Assembly: GCF_007971225.1 (NCBI RefSeq)
Contig: NZ_CP042435.1
Span: forward strand, 2,917,501 to 2,981,500
Length of the DNA: 64,000 nucleotides
Reading direction: 5' to 3'
DNA from: Panacibacter ginsenosidivorans
GTDB taxonomy: Bacteria; Bacteroidota; Bacteroidia; Chitinophagales; Chitinophagaceae
Shown here one piece after another: positions 29,551 through 39,220 of the stretch (positions are counted from its first letter, which is position 1; the number at the start of each line of letters is the position of its first letter). The translations under genes and the position numbers were made by a program. The notes below the pieces were generated by a model. It saw nothing but the letters and a program-made list of their open reading frames with translations, made no database searches and had not been told where the DNA came from.

Positions 29551-29967
29551 CTACGAACACTTATCGCAAACACCACTTACCAAAACATCTGTCTGTGACT
29601 GTTTAAAACCTGCCGGCAATTTTACTTCAGGAATAGAAATATTTTCCAGACAATAAGCAGTGCCGCAATCATCGCAAATAAAATGCACATGATTATCGTG
29701 GTGATGGCCTTCGCTGCATTGGTCTTTGCACAAAGCATACAGCACAGAATTATCAACGGTTGGAATAGTATGTATGATACCTTTTTCTACAAAAGTTTGC
29801 AGTGTACGGTAAATGGTAACGCGGTCAAAATGTTCACCGGTTTTTGTTTCAATATCTGCATGTGCCAATGCGCCATTTGTAAGCCTGAACAACTCCAGTA
29901 TTTTTCTCCTGCTTTCTGTAATGCTTAGTTGATTGCGCTTCAGAATTTCTGCAACTTCGTTTTTCAT
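29551..29967 (-). CDS. Fur-family metalloregulator, Zur-like
   Basis: The 138-aa protein has an N-terminal winged helix (SITESRRKILELFR, FDRVTIYRTLQTFVEKGII) and a C-terminal dimerisation domain with metal sites: GHHHDNHVHFICDDCG (sensor His and first Cys pair) and a final GVCDKC (second pair), the structural zinc site of Fur and Zur. Its position with an SCO gene and a divergent MerC gene across a perfect palindrome favours zinc sensing, but iron or another metal cannot be excluded. It begins 10 bp after the SCO gene stop. ATG start. Confidence 0.88.
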   Translation of the reverse strand: MKNEVAEILKRNQLSITESRRKILELFRLTNGALAHADIETKTGEHFDRVTIYRTLQTFVEKGIIHTIPTVDNSVLYALCKDQCSEGHHHDNHVHFICDDCGTAYCLENISIPEVKLPAGFKQSQTDVLVSGVCDKCS

Positions 29968-29977
29968 ATACTAAAGA

Positions 29978-30628
29978 TTAATTACCAAAAAGATTATTAC
30001 TAAACGTTGTGCCATTTGCTTTCTCTTTCAATAAGGTTCTTATATCATCTTTTAGTTTGTCAAGTTCTTCCTGTTTTAATCCGTCGTATACCTGTCCGCG
30101 TACATCACCATTTTTATCAACCAGTGCAAAGAATTGTGTATGTAAAAACTGGTCGTTAATATTCACGAGTGAATTCTTTGGATCATCCAGCAAATAACTA
30201 TTTCTTGCCTGTGCATAAAGACTGTCCTTCCTGCCCGTCAAGAAAACCCATTTGTGTTCATCAATCTTCAAAGAATCTGCATAATGTTTTATTACCGGCA
30301 CCGAATCTGTTTCAGGATCGCAGGTATGCGATACGATCATAAACCCCGGTTCATCTTTAAACGCATCATAGATCTTATGCATGTTGCCATTCATCTTTGG
30401 GCAAATACCCTTGCACGTTGTAAAAAAAAAGTTTACCACCACCACTTTTCCTTGCATATCTTTTTCTGTAAAGTCTTTACCATCCTGGTTTAAAAAAGTA
30501 AATGGCTTTACATTGCTTATTATCGGTGATTTTGCCCTCCAGTTATCGGTGCCCCAAAAAGAAAACAGCAGAAACAAGCCTGTAAGTATTACAAAGAAGA
30601 TGCTATAACCGATGAATTTTTTTTTCAT
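29978..30628 (-). CDS. SCO1/SenC family copper-binding protein
   Basis: The 216-aa protein has an N-terminal membrane anchor (about 6-26) and a thioredoxin-like domain with the copper motif CKGIC (Cys72, Cys76) and distal His163 (LHTQFF). SCO proteins deliver copper to the CuA site of cytochrome oxidase or act in redox maintenance at the periplasmic face. It is the first gene of a two-gene unit with the Fur-like regulator, and its upstream region is shared with merC, including the palindrome at 30702-30720. ATG start. Confidence 0.9.
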   Translation of the reverse strand: MKKKFIGYSIFFVILTGLFLLFSFWGTDNWRAKSPIISNVKPFTFLNQDGKDFTEKDMQGKVVVVNFFFTTCKGICPKMNGNMHKIYDAFKDEPGFMIVSHTCDPETDSVPVIKHYADSLKIDEHKWVFLTGRKDSLYAQARNSYLLDDPKNSLVNINDQFLHTQFFALVDKNGDVRGQVYDGLKQEELDKLKDDIRTLLKEKANGTTFSNNLFGN

Positions 30629-31518: not shown

Positions 31519-32940
31519 TTATAGGCTTAAATTAAGTTTAGACCAGCCTTTCCACCAATCTGCATCTGCGCTGCCTACTGGCCCAACAGCACCGCGATAA
31601 CTGGTAGGCGTAAATCCTGATGCAAGTTTGCTATTGGTAAAATCTGCACCGGTAAGTAACGGAGAACCATCCTGTGGAGTAAAATCAGGGCTGCTGTAAT
31701 TATAAGGAGCCGCAAGTTTTACATCATCATTTGCAGCTAATATACTATTACCATATTCAGTTGTAGCAAACCAGAGTGCAGCGGATTCTGATTTCCATCC
31801 TGTTGGTGAACTTGTGCTTTCAGAATAGCTAACCGGTGTAGCACAACCTGCAATAGTTGTATGTTGTACGAATAAGGTTCCTGCAGCAATATTATTATCT
31901 GTTGGCGTACCCTTGCTTGCATCGATCAACAATCCTGTAGGATAACCCATGATAACAGAATTAAAGATAGAGATGGTTGAATTTCTTCTTATTTGTGCAC
32001 CTGCAAGGAACAAGCTGTTACCAATGTTTGCTGTAGTAGCTCTGGGCCCTATAACAGTAATATTGCTGTACACGCCTGATGTTTGTGGTAAAAGAGAGCT
32101 TCCATTTGCATCATTATCACTTTCAAAAGATTCAGATTTTGAAATATCGGCAACAGATGAATCTCTCATTACAATCCCCCATTGAACTTTACCGCTCCAT
32201 CCATTGTCTGTATCAAAATCATCATCAAGTGTGCTGATGAAAATAGTGTGTTTAAGATTTACTGATCCGCCGAAACATTCAATAGCATCATCATTTGCTT
32301 TGAAAATTTCTACGTAATCAATAGTAGTTGCATTACCTACACCGGCAAGTGTTAGCCCATTCAATTCGTTATCGGGCAGGTATGCATAACCTGCATATTC
32401 AATACGTACATAACGGAGTGTGCCTGAATTATCGGCATCGTTTGTGCCACCATATAAACCAAGACCCTCAGCATTATTTACACCACCTTCAACAGAACCA
32501 ACGCCTGCCACACCATTATAAGACGCGTTTGTTTTTGCATTACCAAGAATGACTATACCACCCCAATCGCCTCTCGCAGGATTTGCCTGATCTGAGGTGA
32601 AAACGATAGGATTATCTTTTGTTGCATCTGCAATGATCTGACAACCCTTTGTAATAACGAGTGTGCCTCTTGAGTTTGTGCCTTTTTCCCCTTGTATTAC
32701 GGTACCTGGTTCAATAGTAAGTTTCGCACCATTTACAACATATACAATACCCCTCAGTTTGTAAGTATAATTTGCTTTCAATGTTCTGTCTGATGAGATC
32801 TTTCCTTCGAGAATAGTATTCTCGGCCGTAGAATCTGTACCGCCGTTATTACCCCCGATAACAGTTACGTCTTCTTCAATTTTGCGGCACGATGTAGTTA
32901 AAACTACTGCTGCAACTAATAGACTCAAAAACTTGTTCAT
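31519..32940 (-). CDS. Surface lipoprotein with beta-helix-like repeats
   Basis: The 473-aa protein has a lipoprotein signal (LTTSC, Cys18), a Gly/Thr linker, and a domain rich in short beta strands and Asn/Gly turns (LEGKISSDRTLKANYTYKL, GDWGGIVILGNAKT) resembling right-handed parallel beta-helix folds. It is probably exposed on the outer membrane. It starts 51 bp after the TonB receptor stop on the same strand, so it is likely the partner of that receptor, comparable in position to SusD-type or other substrate-capturing partners though not homologous to SusD. Substrate unknown; the phased repeats upstream of the receptor suggest a phosphate link (inference). Confidence 0.8.
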   Translation of the reverse strand: MNKFLSLLVAAVVLTTSCRKIEEDVTVIGGNNGGTDSTAENTILEGKISSDRTLKANYTYKLRGIVYVVNGAKLTIEPGTVIQGEKGTNSRGTLVITKGCQIIADATKDNPIVFTSDQANPARGDWGGIVILGNAKTNASYNGVAGVGSVEGGVNNAEGLGLYGGTNDADNSGTLRYVRIEYAGYAYLPDNELNGLTLAGVGNATTIDYVEIFKANDDAIECFGGSVNLKHTIFISTLDDDFDTDNGWSGKVQWGIVMRDSSVADISKSESFESDNDANGSSLLPQTSGVYSNITVIGPRATTANIGNSLFLAGAQIRRNSTISIFNSVIMGYPTGLLIDASKGTPTDNNIAAGTLFVQHTTIAGCATPVSYSESTSSPTGWKSESAALWFATTEYGNSILAANDDVKLAAPYNYSSPDFTPQDGSPLLTGADFTNSKLASGFTPTSYRGAVGPVGSADADWWKGWSKLNLSL

Positions 32941-32991: not shown

Positions 32992-35805
32992 TTATTTAAA
33001 GTTGTATGCAAAACTTAAGCTCACATTTGTTCCATAGTTTCTTGATAAAGCAAGTGCATCTACACTGTTGTACTTCTTGCTGCCATCAAGATCATGATAG
33101 TATCTTGCTTTTTGATTAAGCAAATCAGAAATGTTTAATTTTAATTCGCCCTTCTTGTCCATAATCTTTTTTGCTATCTGCAGATCAAGCAATGGTCTTG
33201 GTGCTTCCCATACCGGAGGCAATTGCTCATTACCTACATACAGGATACGACGGCCTACTTCATTAAACAGGAGCGTGGCATAAAGACCGGCTTCTTCTAC
33301 ATCATACTGCATTGATGCATTGATCAGATAAGGTGACTGGCCCTGCATTGGCCTGTTCAAAGATTGCTGATCGAACTTTACACGATTGTAGATATATGAG
33401 AAGTTGCCAGCCAATGTAAATCTTTTGAATGCCTGCATAAAATCAAGCTTCTTTCTGAATTCAATTTCTGCACCGTAGGTTTGTGCGCTTGTCTTATCAT
33501 TATCCAGGTAATTGAATGTGCTGGAAGAACCTGCACCTGTTTGGTTAAAGGCGAGCTCGATGGGGTTATTGAAGTATTTGTAAAAAGCACCAAGTGTAAA
33601 TAATTCTCCGGGCCTTTGATATATTTCATAACGAAGATCAATATTGGAAACCTTTGTCCTTTCGAGGTTAGGATTACCAATAATAGTGGCACCTACTTCA
33701 AAATCATAGAACGCTGTTCCTGTTAATTCCCTGAATTCAGGCCTTACCACGGTTTGTGATACAGCAAACCGAAGGTTTGATCTTGGGCTTAGTTTGTAGG
33801 TTGTATTTATAGCGGGGAGAAAATCTCCTACTTTACTATAACTGTATCTTGGATCAGATTTTCTTGTACTACCCACTAATTGGTCATAGTTTTCATAACG
33901 CACACCCCATACAACTCTCAATTTATCTGTCAGGTTATTATCGAACTGTATATATCCCGCATTTAAAATGGTGTTTGCTAAATAGCGGAAATAAATACCT
34001 GACAATTCATCAAAATGAAATTGATTATCTGCAGGTCCAAAATTTTGAGCAGCAAATATCTGTGAAGGATCAAGCGCTCTTAATGTTGGATTATCTGATG
34101 CAAGAGATATTGAGAACGGTCTTGCATTAAACAACCTGTCTTTTACCTGGAAATTGTAACCTGCTTTTATCGATTGCTTCTTACCGCCAATTGTAAAATT
34201 GTTAGTTATATCACCGCCAAAATTGTAGATATAATCATTTAGGTTGCTGTAATAAACGCTACCTGTTTTCTGTGAAAGGGTATTTGATAACAAAGCAAGA
34301 TATGGTGCGTTAGGATCAGTAGGATCCTGGTTATATTGGATACGGCGCTGTTGAGGAATATACTGGTCAAGAATACTGAAGCTGCCAAACCAGTTAAACT
34401 TAGACTTAAGCGAGGGCATATTATGTTCCCCGTTTAATTGCGTATTAAAGAAAGTATTGTTTCTGAACCCATATTCATATGCTTTAATATTTTCCCCTAA
34501 CTGGGAGTTAAACTCATAGTCTTTACCCGTACGCAGCGTAGCATAATCAGAAGTGTTTACATTGATCAGGTTTTTAAAACTGATCTTATTATTGGTATTA
34601 AGTCTCAAAGAAAAATTCGCTAATGCTCCCCACAATACATCCTGGGTATATTTATTGTTCTGGTAAATAAAAGAAGCATCTGCTTTGTTATCATTGATAT
34701 TAAAAAAACTGTTCTGGTAATCAAGATTCTTTACGCTTCTGTTATAGGTAACCGTAACAACACCGCCTAAATCTTTCTTAAATAACTTTGTTACGAAACC
34801 TCCGTTTGCCTGGAATGACTGACCGAGCGTGTTAAGAAAGCTTGTTTTTAATTCCGGTGCCCAGCTTTTGGCAGCAAGACTTACACCAAGTTGTGTTTTT
34901 GTTGCATTGTCTAATGCACCAAAGGCATTTTTTGTAGGAAAGCCATTAGGTAATGCTCTTGAACCATCATCGATACCAAGAAAATCTAATTTACCACCGG
35001 GATAAGTATAAATATCTTTCCCAATTGTATTGGTATTAAAGTTTGTTCCTATAGATATATTGAAAAATCCTTTGGCAGGAATATCCCTGGTATTTACCTG
35101 TATCAAACCACCGGCCCACTCACCTGAATACTCCGGAATAAAAGTTTTGTTTACAATAATGTTCTCAACAATAGCTGCCGGAAAAATATCAAAGGAGAAA
35201 GTCTTCCTGTCTGGTTCAGTACTGGAAAGCAACACTCCATTTAACATTGCCTGGTTATAACGATCACTTAAACCACGCACCACAATATATCTTCCCTCCT
35301 GTATAGATAACCCTGTAACGCGTTTCAGGGCCTCCCCGGTATTTTTATCTGGTGAGCGGCGTATAGCTTCCGCAGAAATAACCTGTGCAACGGCATTGGT
35401 ATTTTTCTGGAAGGTGATCAAAGCATTGGTGCTTTCTTTTCTTGCAGAAGTTTTTACGGTTACATTTTCAAGGTTACCAGATTTTGCAACCAGGGCAATA
35501 TTCAGGTTATTGACCTGTACTGCAGTTACTTCAACATCCGTCAATGTTTTGGTACCAAAACCAACAGCAGATATTTCAATCTCGTATTTTTTCCCTGAAG
35601 GAAGTGTAAGTTCAAAGTGGCCATCAACATCTGTGGCCACACCAATATTAAGAGAGAGTACTTTTACAGATGCGCCAATAACCGGTTTGTTATTTTCATC
35701 TGAAACGGTGCCTGAAACTTTTCCATTCTGAGCGTTTACAGCCTGTGCACTTAAAATAAAGAATCCCACAATCACTAAACGGTTTACCCATCTAATCGCC
35801 TGCAT
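32992..35805 (-). CDS. TonB-dependent outer membrane receptor
   Basis: The 937-aa protein has a signal peptide (IVGFFILSAQAVNAQ), an N-terminal carboxypeptidase-regulatory-like domain (KVSGTVSDENNKPVIGASVKV ... GVATDVDGHFEL), a plug domain (VISAEAIRRSPDKNTGEALKRVTGLS, RGLSDRYNQ) and a 22-strand barrel ending LSFAYNFK. It takes up a ligand with energy from TonB. It is the first gene of a two-gene unit with the lipoprotein. Six phased direct repeats lie 30-92 bp upstream of its ATG, where an activator would bind. Ligand unknown. Confidence 0.93.
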   Translation of the reverse strand: MQAIRWVNRLVIVGFFILSAQAVNAQNGKVSGTVSDENNKPVIGASVKVLSLNIGVATDVDGHFELTLPSGKKYEIEISAVGFGTKTLTDVEVTAVQVNNLNIALVAKSGNLENVTVKTSARKESTNALITFQKNTNAVAQVISAEAIRRSPDKNTGEALKRVTGLSIQEGRYIVVRGLSDRYNQAMLNGVLLSSTEPDRKTFSFDIFPAAIVENIIVNKTFIPEYSGEWAGGLIQVNTRDIPAKGFFNISIGTNFNTNTIGKDIYTYPGGKLDFLGIDDGSRALPNGFPTKNAFGALDNATKTQLGVSLAAKSWAPELKTSFLNTLGQSFQANGGFVTKLFKKDLGGVVTVTYNRSVKNLDYQNSFFNINDNKADASFIYQNNKYTQDVLWGALANFSLRLNTNNKISFKNLINVNTSDYATLRTGKDYEFNSQLGENIKAYEYGFRNNTFFNTQLNGEHNMPSLKSKFNWFGSFSILDQYIPQQRRIQYNQDPTDPNAPYLALLSNTLSQKTGSVYYSNLNDYIYNFGGDITNNFTIGGKKQSIKAGYNFQVKDRLFNARPFSISLASDNPTLRALDPSQIFAAQNFGPADNQFHFDELSGIYFRYLANTILNAGYIQFDNNLTDKLRVVWGVRYENYDQLVGSTRKSDPRYSYSKVGDFLPAINTTYKLSPRSNLRFAVSQTVVRPEFRELTGTAFYDFEVGATIIGNPNLERTKVSNIDLRYEIYQRPGELFTLGAFYKYFNNPIELAFNQTGAGSSSTFNYLDNDKTSAQTYGAEIEFRKKLDFMQAFKRFTLAGNFSYIYNRVKFDQQSLNRPMQGQSPYLINASMQYDVEEAGLYATLLFNEVGRRILYVGNEQLPPVWEAPRPLLDLQIAKKIMDKKGELKLNISDLLNQKARYYHDLDGSKKYNSVDALALSRNYGTNVSLSFAYNFK

Positions 35806-35834
35806 GTGTTAAATTTTGTGCAAAGGAATACCGG

Positions 35835-35897
35835 CAATGTTATGGGCATGTTACCCCAATGTTAAGCAATCATTACCGCAATGTTACGCCAATGTTA
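35835..35897 (-). promoter_or_regulatory. Six 11-bp-phased TAACATTG repeats, Pho-box-like
   Basis: Read on the minus strand toward the receptor gene, TAACATTG-type units end at 35842, 35853, 35864, 35875, 35886 and 35897, exactly 11 bp apart. Four are perfect, one reads TAACATGC and one TAATGATT. PhoB/PhoP-type response regulators bind 11-bp direct repeats, and the B. subtilis PhoP unit is TTAACA-like. The last repeat lies about 6 bp upstream of a weak TTCCTTTG -7-like element (35821-35828). Confidence 0.75.
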
Positions 35898-36645: not shown

Positions 36646-37506
36646 TTATACTAATTTCTTCAACTTAACATCCTTCGTTTCCAAATTCACCATCACACTA
36701 TCCCCTTTCTCAAAACTTATTAATTTTGTAGCATCAACTTTTATCCTGAACAAATCCCTGCCAATTAACAAACACAATTCATCATTTATCTTGTCTATTA
36801 CAATACCGCCAAGCTGAAGCGTTCCATTGTTATGCGCAGCAAACATTTCCACCGGGCTGCCACTTTTTTCTACCACGCCATCTTTAATAAAAAGGATCTC
36901 ATCTGCAAGCCGTATCATCTCTGCAATATCATGGCTTACCAGCAGCGTAGTTAAATTGAATTGTTTATGTACATTTAAAATAAGCGACTGTAGTTTGTCT
37001 CTTAGCTCTTCATCCAATGCAGAAAGTGGTTCATCTAACAACAGCAGGTCTGGTTTGCGTACCAGTGCCCTTGCCAGTGCCACACGTTGCTTTTGTCCGC
37101 CGGAAAGTGTTTGTATCTTACGGTTGTGGAGTTGTTCAAGTTCTACTAAAGCAAGTAATTCCTCCACCAGATTTTTAGGAGAAGCTTTATCTATTGCAAA
37201 CAACAGGTTTTCTTTTACCGTCATGTTGGGAAACAGGGCATAATCCTGGAATACAAAACCAATACTTCTTTTTTGGGGAGCAAGATTTATTTTTCTATTG
37301 CTGCTATACCAGTTATTTTCCTGCACTTTTATAAACCCTTTTTCCGGTTCAAGAAAACCTGCAAGCATTCTTAATAAAGAAGTTTTACCTGCACCTGATG
37401 CGCCATAGATACCAATAAAAGAACACGGCTTAATATTATGGCTAATATCAAAAAGCATATTCCCGTTGGCGGCATGTAATTTCTTTTGCAGAGAAAACGA
37501 GATCAT
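36646..37506 (-). CDS. modC: Molybdate ABC transporter ATP-binding protein
   Basis: The 286-aa ATPase has Walker A GASGAGKT (about 34-41), Q-loop (FVFQDYALFP), the signature LSGGQKQRVALARAL, Walker B LLLLDEPLSALD and a C-terminal domain after residue 220 with TOBE-like strands (about 60 residues) that may sense molybdate. It energises uptake through ModB. It overlaps the modB stop by four bases (ATGA), so the two are translationally coupled. ATG start. The substrate is assigned from the modA-modB-modC order. Confidence 0.9.
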   Translation of the reverse strand: MISFSLQKKLHAANGNMLFDISHNIKPCSFIGIYGASGAGKTSLLRMLAGFLEPEKGFIKVQENNWYSSNRKINLAPQKRSIGFVFQDYALFPNMTVKENLLFAIDKASPKNLVEELLALVELEQLHNRKIQTLSGGQKQRVALARALVRKPDLLLLDEPLSALDEELRDKLQSLILNVHKQFNLTTLLVSHDIAEMIRLADEILFIKDGVVEKSGSPVEMFAAHNNGTLQLGGIVIDKINDELCLLIGRDLFRIKVDATKLISFEKGDSVMVNLETKDVKLKKLV

Positions 37507-38177
37507 AATAATTTTATCTTATCAAAACGGCGGTTAACAAGATACAATGTAAGCAGTATAATAAATGAAGTAATAAAAAGAATCAGGGCATAAGTATTTG
37601 CTGCATCATAATTCATTGTTTCCACTTCATCATAGATTGCAATAGATGCCACTTTTGTTTGCCCAGGAATATTACCACCGATCATCAACACCACACCAAA
37701 TTCTCCAATAGTATGCGCAAAGGTTAGTACAATACCAGAAAGCAATGAAGATTTTATATTTGGCAGCAACACATTGAACAGTGTTTGCCATTTTGTTTTT
37801 CCCAATGAATAAGATGCTTCCCTTAGATTGGGAGATAAAGAATTAAAACCCGAATGCACCGGGTGTACCATAAAAGGCAAACTGTAAATAACAGATGCTA
37901 TTACCAAACCGGGGAAAGAGAATGCAAACCTTATGTCAAAATAATCCTGCAGCAATTTGCCAAATGCATGAGATGGGCTAAAGGCTAGCAAAAGATAGAA
38001 ACCAATAACAGAAGGCGGCAATACCAGCGGCATACTTACCACTGCTTCTATAACTGTTTTAAAATTATTCTTTTTATATGCCAGCCACCAGGCAAGTGGT
38101 ATAGAAATAACAAGCAATATAAGTGTAGTAACAAAAGCCAGTTTCAACGTTAACCAAAATGGTTCAAATTCTATCAT
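37503..38177 (-). CDS. modB: Molybdate ABC transporter permease
   Basis: The 224-aa inner-membrane permease has five hydrophobic helices and the EAA-type cytoplasmic loop (LREASYSLGKTKWQTLFNVLLP). It is of ModB type. It forms the channel with ModC and accepts molybdate from ModA. The start is 194 bp downstream of the modA stop, a gap holding a repeat arm and hairpin-like sequence (38210-38290, CTGAGGCGC and CGTCTCGGCGG). ATG start. Confidence 0.92.
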   Translation of the reverse strand: MIEFEPFWLTLKLAFVTTLILLVISIPLAWWLAYKKNNFKTVIEAVVSMPLVLPPSVIGFYLLLAFSPSHAFGKLLQDYFDIRFAFSFPGLVIASVIYSLPFMVHPVHSGFNSLSPNLREASYSLGKTKWQTLFNVLLPNIKSSLLSGIVLTFAHTIGEFGVVLMIGGNIPGQTKVASIAIYDEVETMNYDAANTYALILFITSFIILLTLYLVNRRFDKIKLL

Positions 38178-38303
38178 AAGCTTGTTTGGCTATCGATATA
38201 AAAGTTTATACTGCTGAGGCGCAAAAACGGAGAGGAATTTTTTTCCATTTTTCTTCGCGTCTCGGCGGTTCTGCGGTCATTATTGTTCAATTTTGTTTCT
38301 TCA

Positions 38304-38322
38304 GTACAAGTGTGCAACGCAA
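38304..38322 (-). repeat. Intergenic repeat arm, type A variant, inside mod operon
   Basis: GTACAAGTGTGCAACGCAA is a reverse A core with two changes. The outer flank (GAGGCGATGCC ... TTGCAGCCCGGCTCCTAAAA) runs to the modA end. It separates modA from modB. Confidence 0.85.
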
Positions 38323-38371
38323 GAGGCGATGCCACCTGCATTGCAGCCCGGCTCCTAAAATAAATACTTCA

Positions 38372-39133
38372 CTAGTTTACAATATACCCAAACTGTTTAA
38401 AAATATCTTTTGCAGTTTTGGAATAAAGATAGCTGTAAAACTTTTCCGATGCATCTTTATTGGTTTCTGCGCCATGCTTAAGGATAACGGCGGCCTGTTC
38501 AATGGGTGCGTAGGTGTTTATATCAAGGTCAATCCAACGGCCTTTTCCTTTCATCTCATCCGACAGCACTACAGACTTTGCTGTAAAACCAATATCGGCA
38601 GCCTGAGACGAAATGAATTGATTTGTTTGTGTAATGTTTTCGCCAAAAACAAGTTTATCTTTTACTTTATCATAGATATTATAATGCTTTAATATTGCTT
38701 CTGCCGCCACACCATAAGGCGCTGTTTTGGGATTGGCAATGGCAATTTTTTTTACATTGCCGGTAAGCAGCACCTTAAGATCTTTTGAAGGCACAATGCC
38801 CGGCGTTGTTGTCCACAATACCAGCACACCTTTTGCATAAACGCGTGGTGGAACCGTACCAAATTTGTTCCTGTGTAGTGTTTGCGGGTAGCTGGTATCG
38901 GCAGAAATAAATACATCGTAAGGTGCGCCTTCCAGGATCTGCTGGGTAAGCTTGCCCGATGAGCCCAATATTACTTCTACTTTTATACCTGTTTGCTGTT
39001 CAAATGTTGCTTTCAATGCATTCATCGCATATTGCATATTGGCTGCCACGGCTATAGTAACTTTTTTGTTATTCTGGGCCGCAACCCTAACCAATGCCAA
39101 TAACATAATTGAAATGAAAAAAAATTTTCGCAT
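38372..39133 (-). CDS. modA: Molybdate-binding periplasmic protein
   Basis: The 253-aa protein has a signal peptide (ending VRVAAQNNK) and the type II solute-binding fold. The ATVAVAANMQYAMNAL-like first strand, the SSGKLTQQI loop and the YGVAAE segment match ModA proteins that hold oxyanions through Ser and backbone NH groups. It delivers molybdate or tungstate to ModB. The ATG at 39133 is preferred over a TTG two codons upstream because it gives a typical MRKFFF signal. It is the first gene of modABC. Confidence 0.92.
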   Translation of the reverse strand: MRKFFFISIMLLALVRVAAQNNKKVTIAVAANMQYAMNALKATFEQQTGIKVEVILGSSGKLTQQILEGAPYDVFISADTSYPQTLHRNKFGTVPPRVYAKGVLVLWTTTPGIVPSKDLKVLLTGNVKKIAIANPKTAPYGVAAEAILKHYNIYDKVKDKLVFGENITQTNQFISSQAADIGFTAKSVVLSDEMKGKGRWIDLDINTYAPIEQAAVILKHGAETNKDASEKFYSYLYSKTAKDIFKQFGYIVN

Positions 39134-39220
39134 ACCCAAACATATTATTTATGTGCAGTTTCCGGGTAAACAATGCTATCATTTATTATGTTGCCGGCTG
39201 TAATACACTGTGGCATCTTC

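Follow-up and report, generated by a model that had tools for sequence, protein, structure and literature searches.

A Pho box is a pair of direct repeat units of 11 nt each, bound head to tail (PMC4415409). In E. coli, where the regulator is PhoB, a box consists of two such units, in which seven bases are conserved and four less so, with the consensus CTGTCAT (PMC4415409). Putative Pho boxes have also been placed before plcP in gene clusters of marine bacteria, and PlcP together with a glycosyltransferase constitutes a known low-phosphate lipid-remodelling pair (PMC4796936). Within the Bacteroidota, a paper on PhoB of B. fragilis names a Pho box, the passage found being without its sequence (PMC3547664). 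In F. johnsoniae, a phoBR cluster termed PUSIV comprises a receptor (Fjoh_0545) and the lipoprotein FII (Fjoh_0546), which are induced by Pi depletion only, and the words "pho box", "promoter" and "motif" do not occur in the main text of that paper (PMC8115612). No description of a Pho operator of the Bacteroidota was found in the open-access literature searched. The element that we describe here is therefore of a kind already known, while its form in the Bacteroidota is new as far as this literature shows.

The element lies upstream of a TonB-dependent receptor gene of Panacibacter ginsenosidivorans, within the 64,000-nucleotide stretch of DNA that was analysed as a whole (the window). It consists of six contiguous 11-bp direct repeat units on the minus strand (35897→35832), namely TAACATTGGCG (35897-35887), TAACATTGCGG (35886-35876), TAATGATTGCT (35875-35865), TAACATTGGGG (35864-35854), TAACATGCCCA (35853-35843) and TAACATTGCCG (35842-35832). 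Five of the six units start with TAACAT; the third deviates. The preliminary description had reported six phased 11-bp repeats at this place. Their number and spacing are confirmed, but some details need correction, since the array extends to 35832, its third unit reads TAATGATT and its fifth TAACATGC.

The array is the strongest 11-bp-phased run in the window. In a consensus-free count of column-majority matches over six copies at 11 bp, it reaches 53 of 66, the best place in the window at this period, and as a fraction (0.80) this exceeds the best place at each other period from 7 to 20. All of 200 simulated 64-kb windows (first-order Markov) stayed below this value, with a mean maximum of 43.1 and a highest value of 47. 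We also scored the window with a matrix built from 134 units in 28 receptor arrays of relatives (from the best 80 of 228 loci), the own genome being excluded; the TAA[CT] columns of this matrix are conserved by construction, because the 28 arrays were chosen for TAA[CT]. The six units score 70.9 with it, as compared to a 99.99% quantile of -30.2 for the window on both strands. A pattern of two units in which two mismatches were allowed was discarded as too loose, as it gave 110 matches versus 222 for its reversed control.

In its architecture, the array resembles the Pho box of E. coli PhoB: its 11-bp direct repeat units combine roughly seven conserved bases (in our case TAAYATT) with four variable ones, and at pst, PlcP-type and phoB genes it is placed on the upstream side of the core promoter. 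It differs in its consensus, TAAYATT rather than CTGTCAT, and in its length: whereas two units make up an E. coli box, four to six contiguous units precede the receptor in 40 of 45 promoters, the own one included (best 80 of 228 loci). It also differs in facing a -7 element of the type TTTG. The sites of Bacillus subtilis PhoP are repeats of the TTAACA type and share with our array the TAACA core and the 11-bp pitch, but they belong to another phylum and another regulator lineage.

Directly after the sixth unit follows a block of 11 bp, GTATTCCTTTG (35821..35831, minus strand), with TTTG at 35824-35821 in the phase of the array. We take this to be a -7-like promoter element on the basis of what we assume to be the -7/-33 promoter consensus of the phylum. 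A -7 element directly downstream of the array had been postulated, and the TTTG is indeed present within the next 11 bp. The ATG of the receptor gene lies 15 nt downstream of TTTG, and the place where a -33 element would presumably stand is occupied by the array itself. The same register recurs in relatives: among arrays that comprise three or more units, TTTG is found at offset +8 behind the last one in 33 of the 41 that precede receptors (best 80 of 228 loci) and in 9 of the 15 that precede plcP-type genes. Because the last unit abuts the TTTG block, the array covers the -33 place and the phase is kept in relatives, this arrangement suggests that the last PhoB contacts RNA polymerase in a fixed position.

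Conservation was evaluated in genome contigs at the best 80 of 228 loci with orthologous receptors (51-76% protein identity). Two of the 80 were too short, and in the other 78 the 300 nt upstream were scanned for a chain of TAA[CT] units. The division into Flavobacteriales and other loci is our own and follows the record titles, except that L061 (titled Flavobacterium) was counted among the others and L085 (titled only Bacteroidetes) among the Flavobacteriales. At non-Flavobacteriales loci, at least three units at exactly 11 bp occur in 35 of 44 cases and at least four units in 28 of 44, while at other periods from 7 to 21 at least three units are found in at most 1/44, and on the reverse strand in 0/44 (all from the best 80 of 228). 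The 24/44 loci that respond at a period of 22 bp do so because 22 bp is a harmonic of 11 bp. For the Flavobacteriales, the strict count of three units yields 4/34 loci versus 5/34 on the reverse strand. With the matrix, the 11-bp period appears in 24 of 29 loci, as compared to 0-6 at periods 8-10 and 12-15 (five of the 34 loci were omitted as presumed near-duplicates). Here, two-unit matrix scores are higher on the reverse strand, which faces phoB, than on the forward strand, with medians of 8.9 vs 5.4 (again among the best 80 of 228 loci).

Short units in a tandem array could in principle have been produced by replication slippage and have no regulatory role. Such an origin is improbable in the extreme, since arrays in front of receptors with 51-76% protein identity differ in their spacer bases but keep the 11-bp period, since the phase with TTTG is held, and since the array is also found before unrelated genes.

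Which genes these are was determined in the own genome with a three-unit pattern in which the C/T position was allowed together with one mismatch, followed by ranking with the matrix and reading by gene. With the stricter TAACA in three units and one mismatch, the receptor array had been the sole match, an outcome that seemed to count against the Pho reading before either C or T was admitted at that position. The wider pattern matched 26 times versus 39 times for its reversed control; because the control exceeds the pattern, the matches were judged by matrix score and gene rather than by their count. The receptor array tops the ranking, with a three-unit score of 36.1, and is followed by the array of a second receptor, TBDT2, which has an OMP_b-brl_4 barrel (22.9). 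An array scoring 21.8 (G000:C1, ~3,188,490) precedes a gene for a PlcP-type metallophosphoesterase, behind which lies a glycosyltransferase gene. We apply the name PlcP on the grounds of the metallophosphoesterase domains (LpxH models being below cut-off), the glycosyltransferase behind, and two published accounts (PMC8115612, PMC4796936). Marine plcP clusters are alike in combining putative PhoB sites before plcP with a glycosyltransferase (PMC4796936). Weaker sites, of 13.9 and 10.0, are located where a porin-like gene and PhoU_div-PiT diverge from each other. The label "OprP" or porin-like for the former (L151:3825-5135) was given by eye, as the protein has no match in Pfam or NCBIfam.

Thus the array does stand near phosphate genes of the same genome, as the preliminary description had asked, but not near all of them: the pst-like operon does not carry it, and the site before phoB (5.4) is no better than background. 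In the phoB region, sites of 5.4 and 7.2 occur on the two strands, and we make no claim for a site there because these scores are hardly above those of unrelated stretches (5.1 at L120 and 5.4 at L121). The genome has no match to PF01895, the marker for PhoU. Four better-scoring sites (11-19) have no evident phosphate gene. For L126 (14.3) there is no gene close by, and for L128 (11.7) and L132 (11.5) there is no gene with an evident phosphate role. At L133 (G000:C1:1,793,694), a three-unit array scoring 18.7 is separated by 228 bp from a downstream open frame of at least 433 aa, which is truncated at the end of the locus and has no evident phosphate role; this may be either a new member of the regulon or a chance match.

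In relatives, the association with phosphate genes was followed in several sets. The PlcP-type set comprises 30 loci from 60 genomes of the family, the own genome and one congener included, and the start of the gene was located in 27 of them. Among these promoters, 26/27 have a matrix score above 0 at 11 bp, with 0-3/27 at other periods and 7/27 on the reverse strand; the promoter of L178 has no array. LpxH-like paralogues from 20 genomes chosen as control have an array in 0/20 cases (L261, for example, scoring -6.1). At the non-Flavobacteriales receptor loci (best 80 of 228), 41 of 303 ORFs of at least 180 aa score above 10, and these were named from their N-termini and by comparison of neighbourhoods as 31 orthologous receptors, 1 TBDT2-type gene, 5 porin-like genes, 2 PhoU_div and 2 PlcP-type genes.

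A strict pattern of three units plus the phased TTTG gave 34 sites in 31 of 117 genomes of the family, with 0 for the reversed control. Across the order it was found in 12 of 149 genomes, five of them outside the family, with none for the control. For 30 of the 34 sites a locus was available, and blastp assigned the genes behind as 12 TBDT1-like (one of these with an identity of just 30%), 7 TBDT2-like, 6 porins of the kind standing first in pst operons, 1 PlcP-type gene and 1 PhoB gene (L213), the one case in which the strict pattern precedes phoB itself. A phytase-like gene (by Pfam), a gene without assignment (L206) and one truncated where its contig ends (L204) complete the set. Hence, 28 of the 30 genes are receptors, porins, PlcP, PhoB or phytase-like.

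The pst operons themselves fall into two subgroups. A search for PstC in 40 genomes gave a match in 11. In relatives' operons of the type porin-pstSCAB, a strong array (19.8-38.5) stands just before the porin gene in 6/6 cases; as one of the six was found through the array itself, the count without it is 5/5. The porin that heads these operons gave one weak Porin_O_P match (L217, 21.0 bits vs a cut-off of 20.9). The own pst-like operon (L242:2505-9622, corresponding to G000:C1:2,178,504-2,185,621) is the only one of its genome with PstC above the curated cut-off, and it contains an Rrf2-family regulator (CymR/IscR-like), a 467-aa "porin A", two pstS, pstC, pstA and pstB; no phoU was seen. It lacks the array, scores before its genes reaching -5.5 at most, and in four relatives' operons of this Rrf2-type subgroup there is likewise no array before any operon gene (best -8.8), so that the subgroup as a whole stands at 0/5, the own operon included. 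L257 is the one of these four in which the Rrf2 gene is present too; a site of 7.9 coincides there with the beginning of pstC. Three more pst loci without porin were found, two of them without an array directly before pstS and the third cut by a contig end; in L255, weaker sites of 9.0 and 14.9 lie ~2 kb upstream of pstS. An array at pst genes was the simplest prediction, and it thus holds for the porin-headed operons of relatives, but fails for the own genome, which is the chief finding against it. Since porin-headed pst operons have the array and Rrf2-type ones lack it, the own operon is of another kind; perhaps it transports a different oxyanion or responds to a different signal.

Taken together, the same array precedes known phosphate genes in this genome and in relatives, and for this reason it is very probably the docking site of the phosphate-starvation regulator. 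The proposal of the preliminary description that it is a Pho box proves largely right, given the arrays before PlcP-type, porin-pstSCAB, phytase-like and phoB genes.

With respect to the identity of this regulator, the genome encodes seven OmpR-type regulators. The candidate for PhoB (L113; G000:C1:2,814,083-2,814,769) has a receiver and a winged-helix domain and is followed by its kinase. The PhoB models TIGR02154 and NF053854 are its best two among 102 matching families, with scores that stay below the curated thresholds (232.5 bits against 296.2, and 214 bits against 270), and the PhoR-type models are likewise below cut-off for the kinase. Structures of E. coli PhoB (3t72, 1gxp) are among the matches of its DNA-binding domain, in a list where seven other OmpR-family sequences rank higher. 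In 34 of the 35 receptor loci that have a regulator nearby (best 80 of 228), this regulator has the L113 type as its best match. In the own genome, phoBR lies ~139 kb from the receptor.

It could also be that a different OmpR-family regulator binds the array, the phosphate genes then being controlled by another signal or shared with it. Seven regulators offer some choice, and for PhoP of Riemerella anatipestifer a DAP-seq motif with TTTAACA as its most conserved nucleotides has been reported, together with a proposed action on the Bat operon (PMC9603813); in a mutant of this PhoP system, pstS is 8-fold higher, the opposite of activation by PhoB (PMC5399024). A second kinase-regulator pair of the own genome (L115; G000:C1:3,066,986) adjoins a gene that, judged by eye, is batD-like, and may be the counterpart of R. 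anatipestifer PhoPR. In R. anatipestifer the lower gene number belongs to the kinase, and the L115 regulator likewise comes after its kinase and by the batD-like gene, unlike L113. Because of this order and of the link to Bat, R. anatipestifer PhoP seems closer to L115 than to PhoB, and a second regulator with a similar taste for DNA is therefore conceivable; a non-PhoB regulator of the phylum may like similar DNA. Still, the genes behind the array are phosphate genes, and the regulator that adjoins the receptor in relatives is of the L113 type, and we consider control by a regulator other than PhoB unlikely.

The array is followed by two genes on the minus strand, encoding a TonB-dependent receptor of 937 aa (32992..35805), with matches to CarboxypepD_reg, Plug and beta-barrel domains, and a lipoprotein of 473 aa (31519..32940), predicted to be a beta-helix. 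The lipoprotein adjoins the receptor in 45/46 and 34/34 of the relatives' loci (best 80 of 228), and it has no match in Pfam or NCBIfam. Its structure model is a confident one, the mean pLDDT being 88.4. Among the matches listed in a fold search with this model, proteins that we largely take to be beta-helices predominate, with low TM-scores and no entry with E < 0.001. The beta-helix is thus supported as the predicted fold class, while the search lends no support to any function.

By domains and gene order, the pair is comparable to PUSIV of F. johnsoniae, in which a TonB receptor with PF07715, PF13715 and PF14905, as in our receptor, is followed by a lipoprotein. There, the pair stands beside phoBR. 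The receptor likewise has relatives of phoB and phoR next to it at 32 of 34 loci of Flavobacteriales (best 80 of 228), including Chryseobacterium and its kin, whereas the own phoBR is distant. The lipoprotein forms of F. johnsoniae are described as modestly homologous to a low-Pi lipoprotein from C. crescentus (PMC8115612), presumably ElpS. By its description, ElpS is a low-phosphate surface lipoprotein, as ours may be, but differs in that its release depends on a type II system (PMC2996285).

From the window alone, a receptor for a metal might be suspected, in which case a metal regulator would bind at the array. A molybdate transport set of modA, permease and ATPase (36646-39139) lies upstream on the receptor's strand and ends ~840 bp before the receptor start, and on the other side of the receptor-lipoprotein pair lie a Fur-family gene and a SCO1 gene (29551-30628). 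However, the neighbourhood in relatives is either phoBR or PiT-PhoU_div, the latter within the 5-kb flank of the receptor in 22 of the 46 other loci (best 80 of 228), and the genes behind the array are phosphate genes, which makes a metal receptor very improbable.

We return to PhoB as the regulator. In all likelihood, the array represents three tandem Pho boxes that serve as binding sites of PhoB, positioned a single helical step ahead of the -7 element, and from which the receptor-lipoprotein operon would be switched on for phosphorus capture. When phosphate is short, the kinase PhoR would phosphorylate PhoB, whose dimers would bind head to tail, a single protomer occupying each 11-bp unit; the six units would fit three dimers, or as many as six protomers. 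The last protomer, at a fixed 11-bp step before the -7 element, would replace the missing -33 contact, and the receptor-lipoprotein operon would be turned on. Receptor and lipoprotein would then form a surface system that captures phosphorus, probably organic phosphorus, a role that we infer from the genes sharing the array and from the neighbours. PiT, porins, the lipid-remodelling pair of PlcP-type enzyme and glycosyltransferase, and Pst where present, would be induced at the same time.

A much wider reading can be put forward only tentatively. TAAYATT-N4 units phase-locked to a TTTG -7 element might be the Pho-box code of a large part of the Bacteroidota, in which the number of units ranks the promoters and the longest arrays drive the receptor-lipoprotein pair. 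Surface capture of phosphorus might then head the response in genomes without PhoB-controlled Pst, the Rrf2-linked Pst-like transporter having been turned to another use. The form of the operator in the Bacteroidota is useful because the phosphate regulon becomes readable from sequence, and with it the promoter code for phosphate starvation in this phylum. Candidate regulon genes of Chitinophagaceae genomes can be listed in this way, unexplained receptors, porins and lipoproteins can be assigned to phosphorus capture, and promoters can be picked for a direct test of the ligand of the beta-helix lipoprotein.

In this context, two further proteins deserve mention. Near the operon of the PlcP-type enzyme and glycosyltransferase, there is a gene (L150:4035-5216) for a protein of 393 aa that contains a right-handed beta-helix domain (PF13229). 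Furthermore, a gene divergent from phoB (L119:6759-8957) encodes a 732-aa protein without a match in Pfam, a relative of which (53% over 303 aa) is located beside phoB in Limnovirga soli (L033).
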